From NCBI RefSeq assembly GCF_013378445.1, contig NZ_JABXYK010000005.1:124001-188000 (forward strand): a DNA stretch of 64,000 nt. The letters are read 5' to 3'. The notes beneath the pieces were generated by a model that did not search any database, had not been told where the DNA came from, and saw only the letters and a program-made list of their open reading frames with translations. Below, piece after piece: positions 21,484-61,709 of this stretch. The position numbers were made by a program, and so were the translations under genes. The DNA is from Mycoplana rhizolycopersici. Its GTDB lineage: Bacteria; Pseudomonadota; Alphaproteobacteria; Rhizobiales; Rhizobiaceae. Within the stretch, counting starts at the first letter, position 1, and the number at the start of each line of letters is the position of its first letter.

Positions 21484-21499
21484 TTGAGGGTGCGTTAAC
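21484..21499 (+). promoter_or_regulatory. CtrA-box-like site before the efflux gene
   Basis: TTGA, seven bases, then TTAAC, one mismatch from the TTAA-N7-TTAAC consensus; the right half continues as TTAACCAT. It is 78 bp before the start codon. Confidence 0.45.
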
Positions 21500-21577
21500 C
21501 ATAACACATGGAGAATGCACGAATCGCTTTTTGGACTCGAGATTGTGGGCCGTTTGTATCGCGGCTCGGGGAAGACC

Positions 21578-23071
21578 ATGAAGATTGCACGATCCCTATT
21601 GCCGTTGACAATGCTGTTGCTGTCGGGCTGCGTCGTCGGCCCGGATTACAAGGCACCGGAAACCGCGCTGCCCGGAAAATTCTCCGAGGCTGCAGGCAAG
21701 ACTGCCGGCAACACGACGCTCGACCCCTGGTGGGAAAATTTCCGCGACAAGCGCATGAACGAGCTTGTCGCGCGCGGCATGAACGAGAACCTCTCGGTCC
21801 TGCAGGCAATGGAGCGCATCACCGAAGCGCAGGCCAATGTCGTGGCCGCCGGCGCCGGCGCCTGGCCGCAGATCAACGGCGGCGGCAGCGCCACCGCTTC
21901 CGGCTCTGATGGCTCTCTGCTGAGGAGGCAGTCGACCACGGTACTGGCTGACGGCACCGTAATCCCCGGCTCCAGCCATACCCAGTCAAGGGTCGCATCC
22001 GGCAACGTTGGCGCCTCCTGGCTGCTCGACCTGTTCGGCCAGTATGCGCGCTCGAGGGAATCGGCCAACGCCTCGCTCGATGCCGCCTACGACAACGTCA
22101 ACGTAGCCCGGCTTGCCTACCTGAGCGAACTGACGACCACCTACATCAGCGCACGCTTCTTCCAGGAAGCGCTGGCGCTGAACCGCCAGAACCTGGAATC
22201 GCGCCGCGAAACGCTGAAGCTGACGCAGGACATCCGCGCCGCCGGTGCCGCCTCCAGCCTCGACGTTGTGCAGGCCGAGGGCCTCGTCAACCAGACACTC
22301 GCCGAGCTTCCGACGCTGGAAACCGGCTTCTACCAGTCGGCCAACCGGGCGGCGACGTTGCTGGGCGTACCCGCCGCGACGCTGACGCCGGAGCTGATTC
22401 GCCCCGGCAGCCAGCCCTTCCCGCGCCACTCGACCAAGGTCGGTGTTCCCGCCGATCTCATCCGCAACCGTCCGGACATCCGCGCGGCGGAACGCACGCT
22501 CGCGGCTGCGACCGCCCAGATCGGCGTTGCGGAATCGCAGCTTTACCCGGCCCTGACGCTCGACGGCACCATCGGCGCCGCACGCACGCTCAGCGCCGTC
22601 TCGGGCAACCTGACGTCCTGGGCCTTCGGTCCGACGCTGACCGTACCGATCTTTAACGGCGGCGCACTGCGCGCCCAGGTGGACATCGCAGACTCCGTCG
22701 CCAAGCAGCAGTACTTTGCCTGGAAGCAGACGGTGCTGAACGCGGTCGAGGAAGTCGAAAACGCGCAGACCGCCCTCATTCGCGACTATCAGACGGTAGC
22801 AGCGCTGCGGCGCCTGGTCGCCTCGAACGAGGAGGCCCTGTCACTGGCGCGCGAAAGCTATCGCGGCGGCGCCAGCACGATCCTCGACGTCCTCGACGCC
22901 GAACGCAACGTTGCAAACAGCCGCCTGACGCTGGCATCGGCCATCCGCTCGCTTGCCAGCGACTATGTCGCCCTCAACGTCGCGATCGGCGGCGGCTCCG
23001 CGATCGAGACGCCGATACCGACCCCGTCGCCGAACCGCAAGGTGGCGTCCGCGGCTGCAGCCACGCAGTAG
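21578..23071 (+). CDS. Outer-membrane efflux lipoprotein (NodT/OprM family)
   Basis: 497 residues. A lipoprotein signal ends in LLLSGC, followed by VGPDYKAPE, the usual start of NodT/OprM-type factors. Two repeated OEP halves are visible (NASLDAAYDNVNVARLAYLSE and FNGGALRAQVDIADS regions), with the NRPDIRAAE motif between them. It would form the outer-membrane channel of a tripartite pump. No periplasmic adaptor or inner-membrane pump gene is beside it, so its partners lie elsewhere. The frame is open to 21515, but ATG 21578 starts the signal peptide and follows GGGGAAG. A Thr/Pro/Ala-rich tail ends the protein. Confidence 0.9.
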   Translation: MKIARSLLPLTMLLLSGCVVGPDYKAPETALPGKFSEAAGKTAGNTTLDPWWENFRDKRMNELVARGMNENLSVLQAMERITEAQANVVAAGAGAWPQINGGGSATASGSDGSLLRRQSTTVLADGTVIPGSSHTQSRVASGNVGASWLLDLFGQYARSRESANASLDAAYDNVNVARLAYLSELTTTYISARFFQEALALNRQNLESRRETLKLTQDIRAAGAASSLDVVQAEGLVNQTLAELPTLETGFYQSANRAATLLGVPAATLTPELIRPGSQPFPRHSTKVGVPADLIRNRPDIRAAERTLAAATAQIGVAESQLYPALTLDGTIGAARTLSAVSGNLTSWAFGPTLTVPIFNGGALRAQVDIADSVAKQQYFAWKQTVLNAVEEVENAQTALIRDYQTVAALRRLVASNEEALSLARESYRGGASTILDVLDAERNVANSRLTLASAIRSLASDYVALNVAIGGGSAIETPIPTPSPNRKVASAAAATQ

Positions 23072-34669: not shown

Positions 34670-35368
<699 letters not shown>

Positions 35369-35398
35369 TCGCGCCTGCAACCACTCGGCAAACATCAA

Positions 35399-35425
35399 AA
35401 CCCGCCCTTCGAAGGCGGGTTTTTT
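35399..35425. terminator. Terminator after ctrA, probably bidirectional
   Basis: AACCCGCC and GGCGGGTT, 7-nt loop, then TTTTTT on plus; an A-run on the left gives a T-run on minus, so it can also end the convergent response-regulator transcript. Confidence 0.85.
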
Positions 35426-35554
35426 GTTGCCGGGAAAATGGTCCGGCATCATACATCGGATCGGATCGTCTCGAACACGCAAGGTTGCCAAATGCAAATC
35501 GCGGCAGCGAGGCCCGCTACCGCGTTCAAGACTTCCCAAATCCTCGCGAAGGGG

Positions 35555-35917
35555 TCAGGCTGCGATGGAGAGGTTGGCGAAGACGCTCGTGAGGATCTTG
35601 CGGTCGAACGGCTTCAGCAGGAAATCGTCGGCCCCTGCCCGCTTGCCCATCATCATCTTCCTCAGGTCGGCCTCTACGACGCAGTAGAAGATGCGCACCG
35701 TCTCGCCCTTGGGCAGCATGCGGATATTGCCGATCAGTTCCAGTGCGCCGTCCATGGTAGAATCGACAATGACAACGTTCGGCAGTTCAGCTTCGCAGCG
35801 CACCAGCGCCTCGAGCGAATTCGACGCTTCGAGAACCAGGTAATCCAGGCCTGAAAGGATTCGTTTCCCGACCTTGCGGACGACGTCCGAGCCGTCCGCA
35901 ATCATGATGCGCCGCAT
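35555..35917 (-). CDS. Single-domain response regulator next to chpT
   Basis: 120 residues, a receiver domain without output domain. The phospho-acceptor Asp is in VVIVDSTMDGAL and the switch Lys in FLLKPFD, but the acidic pocket has one Asp (MIADGSD) instead of two, and the usual Thr/Ser position reads VV in FYCVVEA. It may be phosphorylated poorly or act in a different way. It is not CpdR by sequence. It lies 111 bp downstream of chpT on the same strand, so a role in the ChpT-CtrA phosphorelay is a reasonable guess. GGAG precedes ATG 35917. Confidence 0.8.
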   Translation of the reverse strand: MRRIMIADGSDVVRKVGKRILSGLDYLVLEASNSLEALVRCEAELPNVVIVDSTMDGALELIGNIRMLPKGETVRIFYCVVEADLRKMMMGKRAGADDFLLKPFDRKILTSVFANLSIAA

Positions 35918-36028
35918 CGCCTGCTCCAGTTCCCCGCTCGCGGGAGCGGTCAATCATGAAGCAAGTGTAGCGGTATCTGGCAAACAAAAGGTTACCGCCC
36001 GGCGCAGCACAGCCGCCGGGCCGCACGC

Positions 36029-36676
36029 TCAGCCGGCGACGATCTTCGCCACGAAGGTGATTTCCTCCGGCGAGGAGACGATGTCGAGCTGCATCCCGGC
36101 TTCGTTCGCCAGAAGCACCGTGTAGTAGGGCTGGATACTGTGGGCGTCGACGGCCTCTTCCAGCTGGCCGGAAAGCATCTCGTTGAACTTCGGCGGCACG
36201 CGCAGCATGCGCCCCTTGGCCGTCAGGCGGAATTCGGCGTCGAGTTCCGGGCGCTCGAGCGTCACGTCGATCGAACCGCCGCGCGGGATCGCGCCATAGG
36301 CGACGAGGAACAGATTGAGAAGAAGCTTCACGCGGTTCTTGGCAATGATGGCGCGCGGCCCGCTCCAGGTGATTTCCGTCTTCTTCTCGGCTGCGGCGAA
36401 GTCGCGGGCAGCCTTCTCGGCCTCACCGGTATCGATTGACGCGCCGACCGAACCAGAGGCGCCGAATGCGAGGCGCGCGAACTTCAGCCGCACCGAAGCG
36501 TTCTGCGCGCTCGTGCGGATCAACTCCATCGCATCTTCGTCCGCCCCGCCCTCGTCGAGCAGTTCCAGACCGTTGTTGATCGCACCGACGGGCGAAATGA
36601 CGTCGTGGCACACGCGGCTGCACAGCAGCGCCGCCAGGTCTGGACCGCTCAGAGTGAGGTTCGGATTCTTTGCCAT
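36029..36676 (-). CDS. chpT: Histidine phosphotransferase ChpT
   Basis: 215 residues. The dimerisation helices carry the phospho-accepting histidine in SRVCHDVISPVGAINNGLEL (near residue 23), and the C-terminal part is a degenerate histidine-kinase ATPase fold (VKLLLNLFLVAYGAIPRGG). ChpT relays phosphate from CckA to CtrA and CpdR in Caulobacter. GGAG lies 6 bp before ATG 36676; the longer frame is not conserved. It is separated from ctrA only by the small response-regulator gene. Confidence 0.92.
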   Translation of the reverse strand: MAKNPNLTLSGPDLAALLCSRVCHDVISPVGAINNGLELLDEGGADEDAMELIRTSAQNASVRLKFARLAFGASGSVGASIDTGEAEKAARDFAAAEKKTEITWSGPRAIIAKNRVKLLLNLFLVAYGAIPRGGSIDVTLERPELDAEFRLTAKGRMLRVPPKFNEMLSGQLEEAVDAHSIQPYYTVLLANEAGMQLDIVSSPEEITFVAKIVAG

Positions 36677-36816
36677 GAAGGTCTCCAAAATGCCGGCAGC
36701 CGCCAAGGCTCCGTTTGCAACCGGCGGGCTTCGCACAGTCCCAATCGACACTTAACACGCGAAAATAACGCGAAGCAGTTTCAATTAGAAGTCAGCCATA
36801 AAGACACCACATTTGG

Positions 36817-36832
36817 TAAACCGATTGTTAAC
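36817..36832 (+). promoter_or_regulatory. CtrA-box-like site before eipA
   Basis: TAAA, seven bases, TTAAC, one mismatch from consensus, 59 bp before the eipA start. In Brucella eipA transcription is known to be controlled by CtrA, so this site is likely functional. Confidence 0.6.
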
Positions 36833-50828: not shown

Positions 50829-50880
50829 GTTGGCTATCCTTCCAGATAGAAAGCCCTTCGTTGGGGAAGGGTGTCCCGCC
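50829..50880 (-). ncRNA. serC leader RNA motif candidate
   Basis: On the minus strand a hairpin with arms CCCTTC and GAAGGG (50854-50871) is followed by a small stem CTATC/GATAG (50834-50849) whose loop holds the ribosome site GGAAGG. Folding of this second stem would hide the serC start. The order and position match the serC motif described upstream of serC in alphaproteobacteria; the exact consensus was not checked. Confidence 0.6.
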
Positions 50881-51048
50881 GCCGGAAATATGCGAGGTCG
50901 GAATCGAAGTCAAGCCGGATATGTCGCGCTGGGGAAAATATTGGGCGCAGCGTGGATGGTCGTGTGCGCTTGTCCGTTTGGACAACAGGTGCCCTGGGCA
51001 AGCGTTCGGAACGGTCGTCTTCGGAAGCCACCAGCATTTTCCTCCGTC
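50881..51048. other. Upstream of the serC leader
   Basis: About 170 bp that should contain the serC promoter on the minus strand. No clear hexamers were recognised. Confidence 0.35.
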
Positions 51049-51293: not shown

Positions 51294-52139
51294 CTACCAC
51301 GTCGTGACGCGAATGCCTGCGCGGATTTCGTGGCGCTGGAAGCCGTCGTCGCGCGCCTTGGTGCCGGAGGCGCCCAGTGCCTTCTCGGCGCTGCTGTAAC
51401 CGAACATCTTGCCGCCATCGACGTCGGAATAGCGGTAGCCGATGTCCAGCTTGACGCGGTTGGTCAGGTCGTAGGAGGCACCAGCCATCAAGGCGTAGGT
51501 GAAGCGCCAGCTTTCTTCGCCCGGATTACGGACGGTGCCGCCCTGTTCGGTACTGCCGCAGACGCTGCTGCCGTCGACGCAGGTCGCCCGCGTCTTCAGG
51601 TCGTCCCACTGCACGTTGGTCGCACCCACACCGCCGCCGATATAGGGCGTGAAACCGGCATAGGTGCCGAGGTCGATGTAGCCGTTGGCCATGACGCTGA
51701 TGGCGTTGAAGCCGCTGTCCTGGGTGAAGTCGCAGCCCGTACCGGCGTTCTCGCCGGGGCAGGCACGCCCGATCGACGAATCAGCGTCGAAGCTCGAATT
51801 GAAGAAGTCGGTCGTGAGATCCGTTCGCACGAAGTTGTTGAACTGGTAGCCCATGCCGAAACCGTAGGAGAACGGCTTGGAGAAGCGGCCGTCGTCGAAA
51901 CGCTCGCGGCTCTCGTCCGCCCCGCCCTCACCGATGTAGTTGTAGCTGCCGTCGCCGCCCTTGATCGAGGCAGCGTATCCGAGGTCGCCGCGGATGTACC
52001 AGCCCTGCGCAACGGCGACGGTCGACATGTCGACCTCCGGCGCCTCGATGACGGGATAGAGTTCGCCACCGGCAAATGCCGTGCCGGCCGACAGGCTGGC
52101 CAGGAATGCGGCACCGAGAATTGTCTTTCGCACGATCAT
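51294..52139 (-). CDS. Outer-membrane beta-barrel protein (Omp25/31-like), first paralogue
   Basis: 281 residues. A Sec signal (KTILGAAFLASLSAGTAFAG) precedes alternating beta-barrel segments such as WYIRGDLGYAASI, FSYGFGMGYQFN and WRFTYALMAGASYDLTN, ending in the aromatic RVTTW. Two cysteine-containing loops (ACPGENAGTGCDF; TCVDGSSVCGS) suggest disulfide-closed extracellular loops. It is a paralogue of the next gene, with which it shares the WRFTYALMAGAS segment. A CtrA box lies 64 bp upstream. Confidence 0.85.
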   Translation of the reverse strand: MIVRKTILGAAFLASLSAGTAFAGGELYPVIEAPEVDMSTVAVAQGWYIRGDLGYAASIKGGDGSYNYIGEGGADESRERFDDGRFSKPFSYGFGMGYQFNNFVRTDLTTDFFNSSFDADSSIGRACPGENAGTGCDFTQDSGFNAISVMANGYIDLGTYAGFTPYIGGGVGATNVQWDDLKTRATCVDGSSVCGSTEQGGTVRNPGEESWRFTYALMAGASYDLTNRVKLDIGYRYSDVDGGKMFGYSSAEKALGASGTKARDDGFQRHEIRAGIRVTTW

Positions 52140-52202
52140 ATCTCGCCCCCACGACGGCCGGGATTGCGGCCGGTTAACTGAAGCGAGTATCGCAAGGGGA
52201 AG

Positions 52203-52217
52203 TTAAGACGCGGTTAA
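52203..52217 (-). promoter_or_regulatory. CtrA box upstream of the first outer-membrane gene
   Basis: TTAA, GACGCGG, TTAA: an exact TTAA-N7-TTAA, with an additional TTAACCA at 52227-52233. The start codon of the gene is at 52139. Confidence 0.6.
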
Positions 52218-52267
52218 GCATGTTTGTTAACCACGATTTCGCCGCGGGCGGTGCGATACCAACGCAG

Positions 52268-52298
52268 AAAGCCGCCCGGCGGAGCACCAGGCGGCTTT
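52268..52298 (-). terminator. Terminator after the second outer-membrane gene
   Basis: AAAGCCGCC and GGCGGCTTT arms, 13-nt loop, 24 bp beyond the stop at 52322. Confidence 0.75.
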
Positions 52299-52321
52299 TG
52301 AAGAAAATTCTGACGAAGAGC

Positions 52322-53146
52322 TTACTTGTAGATCGCCGGCTCGACCGGTGGCGGGACGTAGGGCACTTCGCAGGTGTTGAAGGTGTAGCGCAAACCGACG
52401 CGAGCCTCGTGGACGTAGAAGCCATCGTCCTCGCCCGGACCGCCGTTCATCGCATAGCCGAACATGTCGCCGCCGCTGATCTGGCGGAAGCGGTAGCCGG
52501 CATCGACCTTCCAGTTGCAGGTCAGATCGACGGAGGCGCCGGCCATCAGCGCGTAGGTGAAGCGCCAGCTGTCCTGGCCGTTGTGGCTGACGCTGTCGTC
52601 GCAGTCGTTCGGATTGTCGACCGAGCAGGAGGTGTTGCGCAGATTGCCCCAGTTGACGCGGGTCGCACCGATACCGGCGCCGACATAGGGCGTCACGCCG
52701 TAGTAGGTGCCGAGGTCGACATAGGCGTTGGCGAGCAGGCTGAGCGCAGACCACGAGGCGCGGTCGGTGGAAACGCAGTCTTCAGCAACGCCGCAGCTGC
52801 CGCTGGTGGAACCGTTGAAATCGCCGTCGAACAGATAGTCGAGCGTCACGTCCGTACGGAAGTAGTCGTTCCACTGGTAGCCGACACCGCCGCCGAGAAT
52901 GACGCCGCCGTCGAGATCGGTGTCGTCGAAGTCCGCCTTGTAGCCGCCGGGGCCGCCCTGATAGTAGCTGGCGCCGCGCATGTGCGTCCAGCCATAGCCG
53001 ACGTCACCGCGCAGGTACCAGCCGCTCGTGGAAACGGGCGCGACCTCCACCGGCGGCTGTACCGGTTCCGGTTGATAGACGTCAGCCGCATACGCCGATG
53101 AGCTCGCAATCAGAGCTGCAACGGCACCACTCAAAAACTTCCGCAT
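52322..53146 (-). CDS. Outer-membrane beta-barrel protein (Omp25/31-like), second paralogue
   Basis: 274 residues. Signal peptide KFLSGAVAALIASSSAYAAD, then a Pro-rich linker (VYQPEPVQPPVEVAPV) and barrel segments including GWYLRGDVGYGW, GGVGYQWNDYFRTDVTLDY and WRFTYALMAGASVDL. The C-terminus ends in a Pro-rich tail rather than a plain aromatic residue. GGAG precedes ATG 53146 by 7 bp; the ATG at 53164 overlaps it. Clearly paralogous to the gene at 51294. A perfect CtrA box lies 87 bp upstream. Confidence 0.85.
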   Translation of the reverse strand: MRKFLSGAVAALIASSSAYAADVYQPEPVQPPVEVAPVSTSGWYLRGDVGYGWTHMRGASYYQGGPGGYKADFDDTDLDGGVILGGGVGYQWNDYFRTDVTLDYLFDGDFNGSTSGSCGVAEDCVSTDRASWSALSLLANAYVDLGTYYGVTPYVGAGIGATRVNWGNLRNTSCSVDNPNDCDDSVSHNGQDSWRFTYALMAGASVDLTCNWKVDAGYRFRQISGGDMFGYAMNGGPGEDDGFYVHEARVGLRYTFNTCEVPYVPPPVEPAIYK

Positions 53147-53232
53147 GCCCCACTCCATAGTCATGTTGACCGGCACTGCATCAGCCCGCAGCGCCAAAAT
53201 CCTCGATTGACATGGATAATGAACGGCAAAGG

Positions 53233-53248
53233 TTAAGTTGCAATTAAC
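53233..53248 (-). promoter_or_regulatory. Perfect CtrA box upstream of the second outer-membrane gene
   Basis: TTAA-GTTGCAA-TTAAC, an exact match to TTAA-N7-TTAAC (written on +; the reverse strand also reads TTAA-N7-TTAA). It is about 87 bp before the start codon at 53146. Confidence 0.65.
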
Positions 53249-53359
53249 TACGACTATTTACTCTGGTTGTTAATGTTGCGGTAAGACTTACGGCCTGCGC
53301 CTGCTTCGGCAGATCGACGCGACTGGCGATTCGCATGAAAACGCGCAGCCTCGAAAGCA

Positions 53360-53389
53360 AAGGGGCCTCGCACGGGATGCGAAGCCCTT
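53360..53389 (-). terminator. Candidate terminator after glmM
   Basis: Imperfect stem with GGGCCTCGCA / TGCGAAGCCC, 5-nt loop, just beyond the glmM stop on the minus strand; a short T-containing tail follows. Confidence 0.55.
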
Positions 53390-59626: not shown

Positions 59627-60151
59627 TTACATGCCCGCACCACCGAGGACGGTGACAGCACGGCGGTTCTGCGACCAGCACGAAATGTCGTCGCAGACGG
59701 CAACCGGCTTTTCCTTGCCGTAGGAAATCGTCTTCATGCGGCTGGCCGGGATGCCACGGCTCGAAAGGTACTGCTTGGTCGAAGCGGCACGGCGCGCGCC
59801 GAGCGCGAGGTTGTATTCGCGCGTGCCGCGCTCGTCGGCATGGCCTTCGATCGTGATCGCATAGTTCGGATACTTCTGCAGCCACTGCGCCTGCTTGTCG
59901 AGGGTCGCGGCCGCATCGGCGCGGATCGACGTCGAGTCGGTGTCGAAGAAGATGCGGTCGCCGACGTTGACGGTGAAGTCCTGCGTCGAGCCCGGGGTCG
60001 CATTGTTCAGGCCAAGTTCGCCTGCGCTGTTGGGCATGTTCTTCTTGTTGGCACAACCTGCGAGCGCCAGGCCCATGAACAGGGCGATGATCGCGGGGTT
60101 GCGGGCGAGGGTCTGCATGCGGCCAGCGGCCGGGACTTCAGTGCGGCTCAT
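59627..60151 (-). CDS. pal: Peptidoglycan-associated lipoprotein Pal
   Basis: 174 residues. Lipoprotein signal ending ALAGC, then an OmpA-like domain with FFDTDSTSIRADAAATLDKQ and EGHADERGTREYNLALGARR, which binds diaminopimelate of peptidoglycan. AAGGAGA precedes ATG 60151. It links outer membrane, TolB and peptidoglycan. Confidence 0.96.
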   Translation of the reverse strand: MSRTEVPAAGRMQTLARNPAIIALFMGLALAGCANKKNMPNSAGELGLNNATPGSTQDFTVNVGDRIFFDTDSTSIRADAAATLDKQAQWLQKYPNYAITIEGHADERGTREYNLALGARRAASTKQYLSSRGIPASRMKTISYGKEKPVAVCDDISCWSQNRRAVTVLGGAGM

Positions 60152-60404
60152 GAGCCGGTCTCCTTAGCATCAGTTCAACAGGGCTTGGGTTTCAATCAGG
60201 GTTGCCAGACTGTAACCGCACGCGGTTAATCGGCATTCAACGATCATGGTTAACAAACGATTACGCAAATACCCCCTGTCGTCCGCCTCAGAATGACGAA
60301 CGCCGCCGAATCCCTCGCCTTACGGCCCTGATTTAACGGACTTTGAGGCGAGAAAGCGGCGGCGACGTCACAATTGGTTGCAGCTGGTTACAATGCAGAC
60401 CCGA

Positions 60405-61709
60405 TTACTCGAGCAGCGGCGACCATGCGGGGTCGGACGCATAACCGGCGGTCTGGATCTGCTGCTCGTTGTAGCCGGTGAGGTCGATCGAGAAGAGCTG
60501 CGGGCCGCCGGCGCCTGCCGGCTGGCGGAAGAACATCAGCACGCGGCCGTTCGGCGCCCAGGTCGGGCCCTCGTTGTGGAAACCCGTCGTCAGGATGCGC
60601 TCGCCCGAACCGTCCGGCTTCATCACGCCGATGGAGAACTTGCCGCCCGACTGTTTGGTAAACGCGATCAGGTCGCCGCGCGGCGACCAGACCGGCGTCG
60701 AATAGGAACCGTCGCCAAACGAGATGCGGTTCTGCCCCGAACCGTCGGCGCCCATGACGTAAAGCTGCTGCCGGCCGCCGCGATCGCTTTCGAACACGAT
60801 CCGCGCGCCATCCGGCGAATAGGACGGGCCAGTGTCGATCGCCGCCGTCGAAGTCAGGCGGGTGGTCGTGCGCGAGCGCAGGTCCATCGTGTAGATGTTG
60901 GCGTTGCCGTCCTGCTGCAGGCTCATGATGACCCGCTGGCCGTCCGGCGAGAAGCGCGGCGCAAACGTCATGCCGGGGAAATTGCCGACGACCTCGCGCT
61001 GGCCCGTCTCAAGCTGAAGCAGGTAGACGCGCGGCTGCTGTCCCTCGAAGGACATGTAGGTGATTTCCTGCCGGCTCGGCGAAAACCGCGGCGTCAGCAC
61101 GATCTCGTTGGAGTTGGTCAGCGCCCGCGCATTGGCGCCGTCCTGGTCCATGATGGCGAGCTGGCGCTTGCGGGCGTTCTTCGGGCCGCTTTCGGCGACA
61201 TAGACGACGCGGGTGTCGAAATAGCCCTTCTCGCCGGTGATGCGCTCATAGATCGCATCGGCGATGATGTGGGCGACACGACGCCAGTTTTCCGGCTGGG
61301 TGTAGAACTGCTGGCCGGTCATCTGCTGGCCGGCAAAGGTATCCCACAGGCGGAACTCGGCACGAAGACGGCCGTCGCCTTCCTGCGAGACGCGGCCGGT
61401 GACAAGCGCCTGCGCATTGATGACCTTCCAGTCCTCGAAGCGCGGCGGCTGGTCGGGGTTGCTGATCTTCTCGATGAAGGCCTGCTTGTTGACGGGCGCG
61501 AACAGCCCGGAGCGCTTGAGGTCGGCCGCGATCACGTCGGTGATGCGCTGGCCGAGGTCCCCGCCGGCGACGAAATCGGTCACGGCGATCGGCAGCGGCT
61601 CGACGTTGCCCTTGTTGATGTTGATCTCGACGAGCGCCATGGCCGGCGACACGGTCGCCGCCAGGCCCGTCAGGCCGGCTGCGGAATGAAGAAAAGTGCG
61701 TCTCAGCAT
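60405..61709 (-). CDS. tolB: Tol-Pal system beta-propeller protein TolB
   Basis: 434 residues. N-terminal signal with twin-arginine-like start ([20 protein letters not shown]), an alpha/beta domain, and the six-bladed propeller made of repeated DG-x-R / SPDG blocks (for example [24 protein letters not shown]). TolB links Pal with the inner-membrane TolQRA complex. It is 253 bp upstream of pal. Confidence 0.96.

Follow-up and report, generated by a model that had tools for sequence, protein, structure and literature searches.

The question raised by this locus is whether two neighbouring genes for outer-membrane barrel proteins, omp2 and omp1, are governed by the cell-cycle regulator CtrA in Mycoplana rhizolycopersici. 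The 64,000-nucleotide stretch of DNA that was analysed (the window) contains exactly two exact matches to TTAA-N7-TTAA, one upstream of each paralogue (Table 1). On the forward strand the letters are TTAAGACGCGGTTAA at 52203-52217 and TTAAGTTGCAATTAAC at 53233-53248, as an earlier note on this DNA had recorded, and the box-to-start distances of 64 and 87 bp given there are borne out for start codons at 52139 (omp1) and 53146 (omp2); omp2 has two more in-frame ATGs, at 53158 and 53165. The motif was right but its strand had to be mended: since both genes are encoded on the minus strand, the reading that counts is the reverse complement, TTAATTGCAACTTAAC for omp2 and TTAACCGCGTCTTAAC for omp1. 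The C at 53248 that had been added as a ninth base is not the conserved one; the conserved C is on the other side of the box, at 53232, and occupies that position in 96% of 79 anchored sequences of the family. Read along the coding strand, both boxes contain exactly TAA-N7-TTAAC, the CtrA site reported for S. meliloti from five verified ctrA-promoter sites (PMC3616915), where CtrA was also mapped by ChIP-seq (PMC4433202). In a stalked budding bacterium, ChIP-seq of CtrA yielded the longer form, TTAA-N7-TTAAC, as its consensus (PMC7200025).

Table 1. Coordinates in the window of ctrA, the omp genes and the elements around them; promoter and terminator elements are predicted.
Feature	Position	Strand	Remarks
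ctrA	34670..35368	+	in window; NF045991, 427 bits (cut-off 350)
omp1	51294..52139	-	281 aa; omp2 paralogue; PF13505, 36.7 bits (cut-off 28.7)
Half-site TTAA near predicted omp1 transcription start	52174..52177	-	same place in seven genus rows
-10-like hexamer GATACT of omp1	52186..52191	-	10 bases past TTAAC; predicted transcription start ~52179
CtrA-type full box of omp1	52202..52217	-	TTAACCGCGTCTTAAC, read 52217 to 52202
Extra half-site TTAA upstream of omp1 box	52227..52230	-	13 bases away
Hairpin 3' of omp2	52268..52299	-	perhaps a terminator
omp2	52322..53146	-	274 aa; OMP_b-brl barrel; PF13505, 52.0 bits (cut-off 28.7); synteny
-10-like hexamer CATTAT of omp2	53216..53221	-	10 bases past TTAAC; predicted transcription start ~53209
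CtrA-type full box of omp2	53232..53247	-	TTAATTGCAACTTAAC, read 53247 to 53232
Extra half-sites upstream of omp2 box	53257..53273	-	TTAA 53273-53270, TAAA 53260-53257; spaced in steps of 13 bases
Terminator-like hairpin 3' of glmM, ahead of omp2 promoter	53363..53387	-	terminator scan, weak

Two such boxes within 1.05 kb, one per paralogue, are very unlikely to be accidental, as the earlier note had argued: dinucleotide shuffles of the window contained a mean of 0.02 exact boxes, and two boxes appeared in none of 100 shuffles. Across the genome (5.6 Mb, 78 contigs) the seven-base spacer occurs at 35 sites, compared with 9 for N6 and 5 for N8. The reversed word AATT-N7-AATT occurs 30 times, but a different word has a frequency of its own and makes a poor background, and the N6 and N8 spacers, about 7 per genome, were used instead. 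A simple ORF call places 31 of the 35 N7 sites in intergenic DNA. Pfam was run on 30 of the 36 ORFs near the sites, 26 of which matched, and eight were also scanned with NCBIfam. Seven N7 sites precede genes that are known or predicted CtrA targets, namely flagellin (two), rcdA (two), minC, rpoD and ftsK (one each); for many of the other neighbouring genes we know of no link to the cell cycle. Flagellin, rcdA, minC, rpoD and ftsK are reported as bound by CtrA or as carrying its motif (PMC3616915, PMC4433202), although rcdA is described as bound yet unchanged on CtrA depletion (PMC4433202).

The gene for CtrA is itself in the window. The genome contains 58 matches to the CtrA model, most of them partial and one above the cut-off. 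The stretch 34670-36831 holds ctrA (+), a gene for a CpdR-like receiver protein (-, named by eye) and chpT (-), with a box containing one mismatch at 36816-36831, upstream of chpT. Several further CtrA-like sequences were seen. A cluster at 60225-60264, which includes TAA-N7-TTAAC together with TTAACCAT, lies between genes that by eye encode a TolB-like protein (60405-61709, -) and a Pal-like lipoprotein (59627-60151, -), and would add a second envelope target to the window. TTAACCAT also occurs at 21495-21502, just upstream of a large ORF (21515-23071) that resembles an outer-membrane efflux lipoprotein by eye. Elsewhere in the genome an exact TTAA-N7-TTAA (L042, G000:C16:67100-67114) stands 39 bases before another gene for an OmpR-type response regulator.

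On the minus strand the genes follow in the order ftsH, glmM, omp2, omp1, serC and serA, with a serC leader RNA (RF00517, 69.8 bits) at 50829-50881, directly before serC. The paralogy of the pair is real, since 108 of 278 aligned columns are identical (39%) and both proteins score above the Pfam cut-off for OMP_b-brl. A profile of ten relatives compared with solved structures matched the opacity protein Opa60 and, weakly, NspA. The family has nine matches in the genome, seven of them above the cut-off, and the box is found before omp1 and omp2 only; in this comparison the first in-frame ATG was taken as the start, and two of the seven other genes lie below the Pfam cut-off. The description of the pair as Omp25/31-like has support at the level of the barrel superfamily, through PF13505, but not for Omp25 in particular. 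Another barrel gene of the genome, L330, encodes an N-terminus that we take to resemble Omp25/RopB and is presumably the better candidate; it has no significant similarity to omp2 (E 0.12), and no box was found in its promoter. The pair is probably not Omp25 itself. In S. meliloti the gene adjoining serC, SMc00639, is annotated as "putative heat resistant agglutinin 1 protein", and we infer from its position beside serC that it is an orthologue of the omp gene. The mature omp2 protein would probably begin with Ala-Asp (AYA/ADVY, cleavage site placed by eye), like peptidoglycan-linked barrels, and mature omp1 would begin with Gly-Gly-Glu instead (also by eye; omp2 start region 53146-53060).

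The box is conserved with the genes. Within the genus both boxes are found in seven of seven genomes, the window's own included; the loci of the genus include Mycoplana azooxidifex, which NCBI places in the Rhizobiaceae, Hyphomicrobiales. Across the family the box lies between -200 and -20 of 79 of the 81 first omp genes, in transcription order, and of 46 of the 52 second ones, compared with means of 0.28 and 0.08 boxes in mononucleotide-shuffled versions of the same promoters. Control promoters from the same regions are almost empty, with a box before glmM in 2 of 57, serC in 0 of 70 and serA in 0 of 63. Other spacers from 3 to 13 bases occur 0-4 times each, except N9 (30 first, 41 second), which is in excess because of an extra half-site 13 bases from the box. 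The first genes lacking the box are L127, which has a near match, and L149, and the second genes are L091 and L094 (both Shinella), L111, L140, L144 and L113, where the box ends too close to the predicted start for the interval used. The 81 first-gene rows comprise 21 loci and 60 regions from 59 genomes, the latter mostly those that scored best among 105 matches from outside the genus (107 of 121 genomes matched); genus genomes present in both sets (L087-L090) overlap, further overlaps are possible, and the third piece of L108, a split duplicate row, was dropped. Matches by tblastn or by profile gave the start codons, whose positions may be inexact. Marking by CcrM/GcrA was considered and rejected as a fixed feature, GANTC occurring within -160 to -20 of 23 of the 81 first and 12 of the 52 second genes.

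In other families of the order the box is present in 56 of 59 first-gene promoters, representing 35 of the 37 families sampled; from the box down to the predicted start codon the median distance is 110 bases. Conservation of the boxes, which the earlier note had proposed as a check, goes beyond what it claimed. At E 1e-25 a match was obtained in 108 of 150 genomes, and the 59 rows stand for one genome each among the 103 that matched and lie outside the window's family, three loci of that family being excluded. The rows consist of the 25 best by score and 34 picked to cover families; of two neighbouring matches, the one transcribed first was used. In nine of the 34 family-covering rows no glmM or serC was found in the region, and the box is present in eight of these and in 24 of the remaining 25. 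The three rows without the box are L175, L231 (near match) and L249. Spacers besides N7 are N9 (32), N13 (12), N3 (7), N6 (3), N14 (3), N4 (1) and N12 (1), and the others, N8 among them, do not occur; the order-level controls, which include three loci of the window's family, have no box before serC (0/38), glmM (0/17) or serA (0/16). The order rows were anchored on the exact box and share descent, so the box bases are identical by construction and the rows are not independent; it is the control promoters that show how rare the box is by chance. Pairwise identity is 31% in the spacer and 27-31% in the distal flanks, approximately the level of unrelated DNA, and with similarity lost between and around them the half-sites look as though they are held by selection. 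Order-wide, the C that follows the second TTAA is down to 48%. In five loci (L174, L176, L228, L232 and L236) two full boxes stand 43 bases apart before the same gene, as if the operator had been doubled at about four helical turns. A search of the wider class at E 1e-12 gave matches in 20 of 190 genomes, among them three that are the window's genome or belong to its order.

The boxes occupy a fixed place within what appear to be promoters. Counted from the first base of the box, the columns +27 and +31 fall in a -10-like element: in the family, A at +27 and T at +31 are found in 97% and 95% of 79 anchored first-gene promoters (both in 74) and in 98% and 87% of 47 anchored second-gene promoters (both in 41), and order-wide in 89% and 77%. 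Placing the predicted transcription start about 7 bases past this element puts the first box base near -38. One result sits awkwardly with reading this as a CtrA activator site: the A and T are missing at that distance from all seven sites before flagellin, rcdA, ftsK, rpoD and minC, and of the 22 sites or orientations examined outside the omp pair, 5 have them. A scan for the sigma-70 consensus found no promoter at omp2 or omp1, which agrees with, but does not prove, an activator-dependent promoter. Additional half-sites accompany the boxes. GTNAA is found at -14 to -10 upstream of the first-gene box in 91-94% of 79 family sequences per fixed base, and in the 56 sequences of other families a GGTTAA half-site lies 13 bases upstream (-15 to -10), at 64-77% per base. 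Among the family's second-gene promoters, 41 of 52 have TTAA-N9-TTAA to one side of the box or the other.

The two genes appear to have separate promoters. The segment 52262-52305, between them, folds at -25.2 kcal/mol (z -5.0), and this strong hairpin suggests that omp2 and omp1 are perhaps transcribed apart, each from its own promoter, in which case omp1 would need one. The hairpin was not listed by the terminator scan, which found 3 terminators in the region compared with 2.3 expected in shuffles.

Conservation across the order, the exact seven-base spacing, the position over a predicted -35, the company of recognised CtrA targets and the presence of ctrA in the window all support the proposal of the earlier note that these are functional boxes of the CtrA type. 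Judged from these sequence features, it is likely that both omp genes are activated by CtrA bound across the -35 region, probably late in the cell cycle. The two boxes would then be activator sites of two promoters, one per barrel gene, at which phosphorylated CtrA on the two TTAA half-sites would cover the -35, with the first box base about 38 bases before the transcription start, and recruit the polymerase to a -10 element that is itself weak. The extra half-sites 13 bases away could strengthen or modulate its effect. In Caulobacter the full TTAA-N7-TTAA is reported near -35 (-39 at ctrA P2), and the genes concerned peak in the predivisional cell (PMC4287350). The omp promoters resemble these full-site promoters in having two half-sites, a seven-base spacer and a first base about 38 before the predicted start; they differ in that other genes are the targets, extra half-sites lie 13 bases away and the start is a predicted one. 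By analogy with the Caulobacter promoters, the pair would most likely be made late in the cycle, with a presumptive role in building the envelope at division.

It is unlikely that the site is instead read by another OmpR-type response regulator devoted to the envelope, with CtrA sharing it or not binding at all. What gives this idea its weight is the strictness of the omp site. At recognised CtrA targets across the order the exact box is present in 6 of 30 rcdA promoters (9 when relaxed) and in 1 of 30 promoters of a CcrM-type methyltransferase gene (3 when relaxed, with start codons guessed). The minC gene, considered as a further control and then dropped, was found in 12 of 61 genomes. The omp site, being far stricter, may therefore serve another or an additional protein. 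CtrA accepts inexact sites. CtrA sites before ccrM in rhizobia have also been reported by motif score (PMC2877005). The poor conservation at the rcdA and CcrM-type genes consequently does not exclude CtrA. The many partial matches to the CtrA model attest to numerous response regulators in this genome, and the omp2 half-sites face each other (GGTTAA-N7-TTAACC), whereas the flagellin and minC sites are direct TTAACC-N5-TTAAC repeats. Other regulators are known to act on such genes: Brucella EssR is reported to bind the omp25d promoter (PMC10746171), and S. meliloti ChvI to bind upstream of ropB1 (PMC3687685). The motifs of two named candidates were rejected at the boxes. The CenR motif TGA-N8-TGA (PMC9275681) is absent, by eye and on both strands, from the two 16-base boxes, and the box sequences also lack the TGTCA repeat described for one of three BvrR boxes (PMC10538546). 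TTAA-N7-TTAA is the published CtrA site, and exact copies in this genome precede CtrA targets, which favours CtrA as the protein that reads it.

It is also improbable that CtrA binds yet represses or modulates one or both genes, so that their expression would be low when CtrA is high. Half-sites over the -10 are described as repressor sites in Caulobacter (PMC4287350), and in 24 of the family's 47 anchored second-gene promoters (for example, L135 and L163) a further TTAA lies across the -10-like element, so that in those species regulation may differ in sense between the paralogues. Against repression, the overlap is seen in none of 79 first-gene promoters, and both full boxes of the window lie over the predicted -35. 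There is very little to be said for chance or for plain A+T-rich promoter sequence, such as might serve MucR-type silencing: both omp promoters are indeed A+T-rich within a G+C-rich genome, but the shuffles, the genome-wide spacer comparison, the exactness of N7 with N8 absent, the background identity of spacer and distal flanks and the nearly empty control promoters all argue against it.

Control by CtrA, part of the reading that we prefer, has precedents. Both the control of outer-membrane proteins by CtrA in Brucella and the CtrA box as a kind of operator are already known. In Brucella abortus CtrA is reported to bind upstream of omp25, and its loss alters the composition of the outer membrane (PMC10538546, PMC10787603, PMC6377625); here too an outer-membrane protein gene has a CtrA-type site upstream. 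The Brucella site, however, is at -389 to -337 and its gene is Omp25, whose orthology to the present pair is not supported. In Agrobacterium, of the same order, AopA1, AopA2 and AopB are described as peptidoglycan-tethered barrels, two of them with consecutive gene numbers, and ldt genes carry predicted CtrA motifs (PMC11527210); the window pair is likened to them as barrels only. The texts searched on S. meliloti, their tables aside, do not name the outer-membrane gene beside serC as a CtrA target. More generally, in a mostly open literature we found no binding or expression data presenting the omp pair as a CtrA target, which ChIP-seq tables may nevertheless list, and no report of the order-wide conservation of the omp site, the search largely excluding subscription journals.

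The regulons of CtrA vary widely among species and have few targets in common. We tentatively propose, at somewhat less than even confidence, that the promoter of the omp gene lying between glmM and serC belongs, throughout the Hyphomicrobiales, to the ancestral core of CtrA targets, its site kept more strictly than those of rcdA or ccrM, and that the supply of barrels late in the cycle is among the oldest outputs of CtrA in this order. A CtrA-type site has been kept in nearly all of the other families sampled before a gene that is not, by its name, a cell-cycle gene. The recurrence of the first-gene site suggests a long-standing link in this order between the supply of the outer membrane and cell division, and the omp promoter offers a defined test case for the timing of barrels relative to wall growth. 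If CtrA binds there, the cell-cycle clock of the order would have had the outer membrane as a direct output since ancient times.
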